Assembly (NCBI RefSeq): GCF_000003815.2
Contig: NC_049984.1
Location: forward strand, 8,828,603-8,892,602
Source: Branchiostoma floridae
Lineage: Eukaryota; Chordata; Leptocardii; Amphioxiformes; Branchiostomatidae
Length of the DNA: 64,000 nt
Direction of reading: 5' to 3'
In this document: in pieces, positions 10,882 to 30,892 of the stretch
How the letters are laid out: every line of letters begins with the position of its first letter
How positions within the stretch are numbered: the stretch's first letter is position 1
Notes under the pieces: model-generated
Databases searched by the model: none
The model's input: only the letters and a program-made list of their open reading frames with translations
What the model was told of the DNA's origin: nothing
Made by a program: the position numbers and the translations under genes

Positions 10882-13800
10882 ATGGCAGCAAGAAAGGTGT
10901 GTAAAGTATAATTTCAATTTGGCTGGCCCAAAGTGACCACAACTGTCTTATCTACATCTCAATCTGGTTGAAAACAACAAGGTTGAATTCTTTTACACAT
11001 AGATCATTTGTAGTTGCTATTAAAGTAATAATGTTTCTCATACGACAAGAGTATTGAGGAGCAGAGAGAGAGAAGGCCACAGCAAATAAATTCATGGATG
11101 ACATCAGTGCGTATATTGATTTTGGCTGATACTAATTAAAGATAAGATGAAAAGATATTTGTTCACCTCCGGAGATACTAGAAAATGCAACTATTGGGAA
11201 GGTATTTGTGTTGTTGCCTTACTTTGAGTGAAACTTGTGAGGTAACCATGAGCAAGTGTGAAGTTGTAAGTGAAACTAATGTCTGGTACTATTGTAAGCT
11301 AGGATGAGTCACAGTTGATACACTTTGTCTCTATAAGCCAAATCTATCAATACAAGTTGCTTTTTTATCAAATAGATTTCGGTGTACCTGTAAAGATAAA
11401 ACTAAAATTGACATTTATTTTAGTGTTTTAGTAGTGGGCTATCACACTAGTGTCACTATAGCACTTCTAAATACAGGAATATAAGATTTGCTTGCTGTAA
11501 TACCATGTTTTCTTGCTTCAATTCTTGTTACATTGTCTATGCCGTGGTCTCTATTTTGAAAATGTAGGCATCTTGTTTTTCTATGTCCATCTTTTTTGTT
11601 CATTAGAATAGATTTGAAGTCTTCAGAAGATACAGTCCATGAAATTTATTTGCTGTGGCCGAAAGAGTGTTGCTAGGAACGTTAAGCAGACAGAAACTAA
11701 TCGATAACAAATTCAATCCCAAAAGAAGGATTTTTTGGTGATGGCACACTTTTCATGTTTTCTCTGCTGTACAGTTATATATAATCAATGTCTACTCTTT
11801 GTCTTTTCCGTTTTTGTTTTGTTAGATTTACTTTAGACTCAGAATTAAAGTTATTAGGAAATCTTGAATGAAAAGAGGTAACTCAGGTATCCTCATTACT
11901 AATGTAGGGTCAATAAAGTCAAATGTAGAAAAGTGGATGCAATGTTATTTAATGATGTCATGAAGGGCATCAACCAAAGACAATCATCAGAGTGATTCAG
12001 AGAGTACCATATGTAAAGCTAAGTCTTGCCTTTCAAACCATTTGTAAGAATGGAACACACCATGCCTAATACATGCAAAGTAACGTTTGTTGGCAACCCT
12101 ATGCTAACATTAAAGGTATTCACAAAGCCTTTGCATTTCTATTGAACAGGCACTGATGGGTTGTCAGTTGGCAATGGATGTTGGTAAATGTACAGAACTG
12201 ACTTTTTGCCTCACGAGGGGACTAAGACCTACGTGAAGTACATGTGTAATGTTCTACACCGCTGGTCCAGAACATTGATGAAAAGGGTTGTCAAATCACT
12301 ATGGATATACAAGATGCTCTCCCAGGAAGAAGTATGAGAACTCTGGTACCTTTCATTAACTCTGTAGTTCGTTTCAGCGCTGCCGAGTCATTGATCAAGT
12401 TGATGGATGTATCTTCCTCAGCATCTTGCAGTGACAGGTGTACCTTTTATCACATGATGAGGGGTAGATTCAGAGATGAGATTTGTCATGGGATCATAGA
12501 GGTAGCCTTACCTGTCTTGTCTGATAGACTACCGTCATCTGTCTACCGTTGTGCAACGTCCATCCCACGTGACAAATGACGACTGGATGAAAAAGATTTA
12601 GCAGATGTGCGCTACAAGTAGTCCAAGACTGCAAGTCATGTTGCCAGTGGGGTTAAGTAGATGAAAGAAAGTATTCTGGCATCGATAAGGACCCCCGTGC
12701 TCTCGTGGTACTGAATTTGGAACGTGACCTGTAACTTCAAATAAGATTTCTCGATCCACAGAAGCTGTTGTTATTCTGGCATAAGTTAGCTGTTTAGGTC
12801 TTGTGTAAAGAAATGAGATATATTACGTTATCGTTCATAAGACAGACGAAAAGTAGTTATCTCAAGTATCATATTTGCTATCATTCCTAAGAAGAGAGAG
12901 AGAGTTTTCAAAGTTTCATACTAGCTACATGTATGCAGAAGAAAGGAAAGAAGAAGGCAAATCATGCTACTTATGTTAATATTGATTAGGTCACACACTT
13001 ATAGTAGAACAGTCTGTCACCTGTGCATTTCAGCCTCCTGGTCATGGTGGTTCCTTTATGCTGGTCTCTTGGATTTTCCCATTGACCAAAGCATTAAGAA
13101 TTCTGTCTACGTCAATCGTCTGTCCGTTGCGGTCATTGGTCACACTATTCTGGTCCTATAGTATTAGCCATTTCCTAAATTGAAGCAACTTTTAAACTAC
13201 CTCAAAGAAAATTGCAGAGGAATCAGCAGTCCCAACCTTTCTGACATTATGACCCAGTTGTGCAGTTCTAGGTGAATACTAAATAGCCTCCCAATGGCCA
13301 GAGTACAGGAACTCATGTCTACATTTACGTGGCAATGTCTGTCAGAGTGATTGAAAAAGGAAGACAGCATTAGCAGGTCTCTACCTTGGGGCTGGGGCAG
13401 ATCATGGGCAGTGGGCAGGAAAATGGCCACTTCCCAACTCTGCTGGCAGTTACACTCTCGTCTAGGAACCACTTCCCCTGTCATTAGGAAGCCTCTGAAG
13501 GTATGGCGAGCACTCAGGTAGGTAGGGAAGACAGATAACCCCAAAAGAGACAGGCTTGAGAAAATTTGATGGATGTAAGAAAAAAGATTAATGGGTATGG
13601 CTCACCCATATAGTCATGGTGTCACCTAAATGTCACTGCACATGGACCAGTGGGTGTTCTCTAATGCATTACCAGATATATATGACACAGAACATTTGTC
13701 ATCAAACTATCTTGGGGTCAAGCCATTTTTTATGTGCACATATCAAAGGCCGTCTGACCATTTTGTTCTGCCTTCTGGATACCACATTTTGACTTAAAAA

Positions 13801-30892: not shown

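Follow-up and report, generated by a model that had tools for sequence, protein, structure and literature searches.

The window analysed here is the whole stretch of 64,000 nucleotides from Branchiostoma floridae (C6:8828603-8892602), and it contains a plus-strand gene whose exons lie within positions 10882-30892. As read from the DNA sequence alone, nine exons join into a single 966-nt frame encoding 321 amino acids plus a stop codon, with GT-AG boundaries at every intron, which confirms the exon chain proposed in the initial annotation. The joined protein carries, in order, an RRM of the hnRNP C/RALY type, a KRPR-type nuclear signal, a C2HC finger (finger 1), a C2H2 finger (finger 2) and an acidic tail. 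Features of the gene and its flanks are given below; paralogs B and D are two related genes on contig C3.

9701-10400, plus strand: CpG-rich stretch, candidate promoter or 5' non-coding exon; from CpG o/e, suggestive only
10882-10896, plus strand: exon 1, start codon and MAARK; ATG, then donor gtgtgt, and the frame runs on
15671-15820, plus strand: exon 2, an N-terminal extension with the first RRM portion (RNP2 IFIGNL); RRM matches PDB 1wf2, hnRNP C, at E 4.4e-34
16275-16434, plus strand: exon 3, remainder of the RRM (RNP1 GYAFVQYT); PDB match, and PF00076 at E 6.4e-13 on the joined protein
20460-20544, plus strand: exon 4, ending in KRGAPSTNW; aligned with the post-RRM segment of hnRNP C/RALY, starts in phase 1 like its counterparts in B and D
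21124-21171, plus strand: exon 5, 48 nt, possibly optional; phase 2-2, donor gtgagt, resembles the DFQRD segment of hnRNP C
26390-26529, plus strand: exon 6, PPPLMGG..AKRPRP, nuclear-signal-like segment; colinear with RALY VPVKRPRV and hnRNP C PSKRQRV, counterpart exons in B and D
27324-27467, plus strand: exon 7, C2HC finger (C210, C213, H226, C231), then C-x-C; from ligand positions in the translation
28155-28354, plus strand: exon 8, BCL11 ZnF1-like C2H2 finger (C257, C260, H273, H278) and acidic tail; 29.5 bits to BCL11A ZnF1, rank in the genome search, intron phase and position common with BCL11
30869-30892, plus strand: exon 9, AAIEEQN, then stop; continues the frame
32071-32076, plus strand: AATAAA, candidate polyadenylation signal about 1.2 kb past the stop; suggestive only

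The least certain element of this model is exon 5. It is one of four in-frame candidates in its intron that pass simple splice-site thresholds and the only one with a full-scoring donor, and its product, MDFQSD, can be aligned with DYDFQRD in human hnRNP C. When it is left out the frame is still open, at 918 nt. At the 5' end, CpG o/e is 1.01-1.28 in 300-base segments starting at 9701, 9901, 10001 and 10101, compared with a mean of 0.53 over the window, which suggests a candidate promoter or 5' non-coding exon for the gene. Other segments with values above 1.0 start at 8201-8801 and 20001-20101, with nothing closer to 26390. Further copies of AATAAA are intronic, for example at 25434 and 25478.

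Elsewhere in the window, two very similar minus-strand open frames of the GT29 sialyltransferase type (43884-44375 and 48052-48588) represent a probable tandem duplication, and an open frame at 41214-42032 carries a sulfotransferase domain (Sulfotransfer_3, E 1.2e-9). At 6289-6388 and 40136-40235 there are runs of N, each exactly 100 long, that are probably scaffold joins; the gene is untouched by either.

The RRM is of the hnRNP C/RALY type. A phmmer search of the PDB matched human hnRNP C and RALY (E 4.4e-34 and 3.5e-33, respectively), with the next family at 1.6e-9; this bears out the family assignment made initially. The RNP1 and RNP2 motifs are conserved in the alignment with these matches. 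Aligned with human hnRNP C and RALY, the protein is colinear over the KR-A segment that follows the RRM, over DFQ-D and over the basic nuclear signal (PPAKRPRP, compared with PVKRPRV and PSKRQRV), and colinearity breaks up at the position of the vertebrate CLZ helix. A tblastn search with human CLZ covered the window and the loci L017-L030 other than the two of BCL11, 12 of 14 in all, and found no vertebrate-type CLZ oligomerisation helix; the best match, at 45591, has an E-value of 0.43 and a stop inside. No relative of the RRM exon was found in viral contigs, where tblastn confirmed none of 222 pattern matches.

Zinc fingers are not known from vertebrate hnRNP C. The window gene resembles vertebrate hnRNP C1/C2 and RALY in having a single RRM, close to the N-terminus and from the same subfamily, a KR(P/Q)R-type nuclear signal and an acidic tail. 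However, vertebrate hnRNP C has a CLZ coiled coil, as described in excerpts of PMC8994388, at the place where the window gene has its two fingers and where CLZ was not found. In Drosophila, CG42458 is given as the HNRNPC counterpart in a table excerpted from PMC10948934.

All eight zinc ligands lie at exactly the residues that the initial annotation had assigned to them. The 98-amino-acid finger module aligns with the N-terminus of human BCL11A at 36.1 bits, with 29.5 bits for finger 2 and 5.4 for finger 1. The best match of the module among 177,635 PDB sequences scores 17.5 bits, a figure that comes without the ZnF1 of BCL11A, no chain of which was found in the PDB. Finger 2 is identical to BCL11A at 10 of 26 non-ligand positions, and in 200,000 shuffles its score was never reached and its identity count was reached twice. 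Finger 1 aligns with Pfam CCHC_BCL-11A (PF25491) over the full length at 8.3 bits, below the cut-off of 27, and aligns slightly better with SNAI1 ZF4 (50) than with BCL11A (47). Its C-x12-H spacing is two residues shorter than the x14 of BCL11A, and the alignment does not clearly retain the hydrophobic residues found at helix positions of BCL11A. Besides CCHC_BCL-11A, Pfam gave only generic or unrelated models on the fingers, and AlphaFold models of the single finger exons have mean pLDDT values of 62.8 and 59.4, which is low confidence.

Other parts of BCL11, a regulator in blood cells, were not recovered with the module. The N-terminal repression motif MSRRKQ is absent from the window protein, which begins MAARKGFG. 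BCL11 ZnF2-3 and ZnF4-6 gave no tblastn match in the window, and convincing ZnF2-6 were also not found in loci B, C and D; over L017-L030, the matches outside L026 were weak (E 0.044 in L017 and 0.29 in L027). In common with BCL11A, BCL11B and the BCL11 of B. floridae, the window gene carries first a C2HC and then a ZnF1-type C2H2 finger, and the exon of each starts in phase 1. It differs from them in having an RRM, in being without convincing ZnF2-6 and in the shorter C to H spacing of finger 1. Matrin 3 and RBM20 are also proteins with an RRM and a zinc finger; however, they have another RRM family and another finger type.

We searched the genome (513,431,437 bases in 431 contigs; match counts may be lower bounds) for relatives of both parts of the protein. 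With the window RRM as query, 19 candidates were scored and 15 matches obtained, two of which are its own exons, followed by D (E 6.8e-29) and B (E 6.5e-27); the best other gene reached 4.1e-4. In each of the three hnRNP C-grade RRM genes found (the window gene, B and D), the finger pair follows downstream of the RRM in the same orientation. With the finger module as query, 11 candidates yielded ten matches: two in the window gene, both fingers at locus B and at locus C, finger 1 at locus D (all three on C3), finger 2 of a locus on C1, and two weak ones (E 1.13 and 9.57). The first fingers of the three paralogs are 45-51% identical in this search, and the C2HC exon of B. floridae BCL11 was not among the ten matches.

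Seven matches were obtained from ten scored candidates when the human BCL11A N-terminus was the query. The first two are both fingers of the C1 locus, after which come finger 2 of the window gene (E 0.001), of D (0.006) and of B (0.25), and then two weaker matches (0.888 and 2.51). Neither locus C nor finger 1 of any RRM gene appears among these seven. By tblastn, the C1 locus (C1:25.54 Mb) carries in L026 the C2HC finger, ZnF1, ZnF2-3 (E 6e-39) and ZnF4-6 (4e-33), and a weak but letter-rich match to MSRRK lies upstream (L027:4512-4450, E 3.6); we therefore regard it as the true BCL11. Thus finger 2 ranks genome-wide directly after the two exons of BCL11 itself, and its description in the initial annotation as similar to the N-terminal finger of BCL11, rather than as a generic C2H2 finger, holds. 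Finger 1, taken alone, cannot be assigned to BCL11 by its sequence. As a pair, the fingers are very probably homologous to the N-terminal C2HC and ZnF1 of BCL11.

The two paralogs repeat the layout of the window gene. Exons of B join into an open frame of 279 codons, the last exon being read to a donor with the gene end beyond, and those of D join into an open frame that reaches a stop. In both, the RRM is followed by an EPKP/EPKT segment, a proline-rich segment (with KRPR in D and KKSR in B), the C2HC finger and the C2H2 finger. Because all three hnRNP C-grade RRMs have the finger pair with the same intron phases, we interpret these loci as a small gene family and not as a chance join. The window-gene RRM is split by a phase-0 intron (15821-16274), and in B and D a single exon holds the RRM together with a candidate start codon. 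Finger 2 of D (L025:333-440) reads CAECGQPCSSPW, in which the usual hydrophobic F is replaced by cysteine.

A fourth copy of the finger pair, locus C, is located head to head with paralog B at L019:8196-7593 (C3:25827592-25828195, minus strand). No hnRNP C-type RRM was found for it in the approximately 36 gap-free kilobases between locus C and B, where a proline-rich match was rejected as an exon on account of its repetitive sequence. Since its fingers are present and an RRM was not found over this distance, locus C is a partial gene or else a derivative without an RRM.

Intron phases are conserved among these genes. After the RRM, exons start in phases 1, 2, 1 and 1 in the window gene, B and D, the series for the window gene leaving out the 2-2 cassette (exon 5). 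The intron preceding finger 2 is in phase 1 in five of five genes (BCL11, the window gene, B, C and D). When the split codon is counted, this finger has its first cysteine at codon ten of the exon in four of them and at codon eight in B. All five genes likewise have a phase-1 intron ahead of finger 1, at a distance that varies slightly among them; for BCL11, B, C and D, splice sites were assigned by eye against the consensus. In human BCL11A, according to excerpts of PMC1526750, the C2HC finger is in exons 1-2 and the six C2H2 fingers are in exon 4, so that an intron likewise separates the two types. Because intron positions and phases are held in common, the RRM part and the finger module were most likely joined by phase-1 exon shuffling, which may have proceeded in either direction.

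The locus could instead be divided in two, with an hnRNP C-like RRM gene that stops after exon 6 next to a BCL11-like finger gene that begins near 27324. Introns are long, with 5.8 kb separating exons 4 and 6 when the cassette is left aside, and at locus C the fingers are present while the interval up to paralog B yielded no RRM, as this division would allow. However, order, strand and intron phases are identical at three loci, the finger exon starts inside a codon with no ATG ahead of the finger, and a CpG-rich stretch is absent between 20.4 kb and 26390. We consider two genes highly improbable; the RRM and the fingers almost certainly form a single-gene architecture, and their recurrence upholds the original proposal of one protein. 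It is also unlikely that an hnRNP C gene simply gained ordinary C2H2 and C2HC fingers whose likeness to BCL11 reflects chance or convergence. Such fingers are short and abundant, and finger 1, equally near SNAI1 ZF4 and below the Pfam cut-off, would suit this origin, but the identities and shuffle scores of finger 2, the rank of this finger in the RRM genes directly after BCL11 and the intron phase and position that precede it in common with BCL11 all argue against it. The best explanation, to which we assign a probability of roughly 0.6, is a real single gene in a small hnRNP C/RALY-type family, in which an RRM and nuclear signal are joined to a BCL11-homologous two-finger module, with the fingers proposed to act in place of CLZ.

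The age of this architecture may be approached through the RRM. That of the window gene is 65% identical to B, 67% to D, 65% to hnRNP C and 63% to RALY, compared with 75% between B and D and 76% between hnRNP C and RALY. Its divergence from B and D thus equals that from human hnRNP C, so the duplication separating them was old or fast, and most simply the architecture predates the split. A fusion on the cephalochordate line that was duplicated there, vertebrate hnRNP C never having had fingers, is a credible history that falls somewhat below an even chance. In an RRM tree with four outgroup RRMs, a branch separates the three B. floridae genes from the others in 67% of 200 bootstrap replicates, which favours this history; however, the tree leaves the gene order unsettled, and the window-gene RRM is as far from its paralogs as from human hnRNP C. 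We give close to an even chance to an early bilaterian or chordate hnRNP C that already had the finger module, which vertebrates replaced by the CLZ coiled coil. This is favoured by the presence of fingers in every hnRNP C-grade gene found in B. floridae, by the depth of the divergence between the window gene and B/D, and by RRM columns 3, 6, 14, 63 and 65 (0-based), which B/D have in common with human to the exclusion of the window gene. Columns 4, 9, 27 and 57 instead set the three B. floridae RRMs against both human ones, and the comparison covers one invertebrate genome.

What the finger module might do is suggested by hnRNP C and by BCL11. Excerpts of PMC8994388 indicate that hnRNP C monomers require CLZ for oligomerisation and strong RNA binding, and excerpts of PMC8708588 that the N-terminal CCHC domain of BCL11B forms multimers, including tetramer-sized complexes. 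By analogy, the RRM of the window gene would bind U-rich pre-mRNA as that of hnRNP C does, and the finger pair would take the role of CLZ by holding several RRMs together, docking a protein partner, or both. RNA binding would then become cooperative and could be coupled to BCL11-type partners. That the fingers replace CLZ in multimerising or docking an hnRNP C-like protein is proposed only tentatively. The same oligomer as that of BCL11A is doubtful because the hydrophobic helix positions of BCL11A are not clearly retained.

Among the open-access papers listed by full-text searches, no title or opening of an abstract describes a protein combining an RRM with BCL11-like fingers. Automatic annotation of sequences may already contain this architecture without comment.

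One of the core proteins that package pre-mRNA, hnRNP C depends on its oligomerisation helix for cooperativity. A BCL11-like zinc module at the place of CLZ makes it a testable question how hnRNP C proteins outside vertebrates oligomerise, and the family that unites RRM and fingers does the same for where the BCL11 N-terminal module originated. More speculatively, a single exon pair may underlie both the finger module of BCL11 and the C-terminal half of hnRNP C in its ancestral form. Early hnRNP C would then have been an RRM protein forming oligomers through zinc fingers; vertebrates would have swapped in CLZ, and BCL11 would have kept the zinc module for multimerisation and recruitment. If this is true, an RNA-packaging protein and a chromatin repressor have a part in common. 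The window gene is a concrete candidate for a protein tying nascent RNA to BCL11-type partners.
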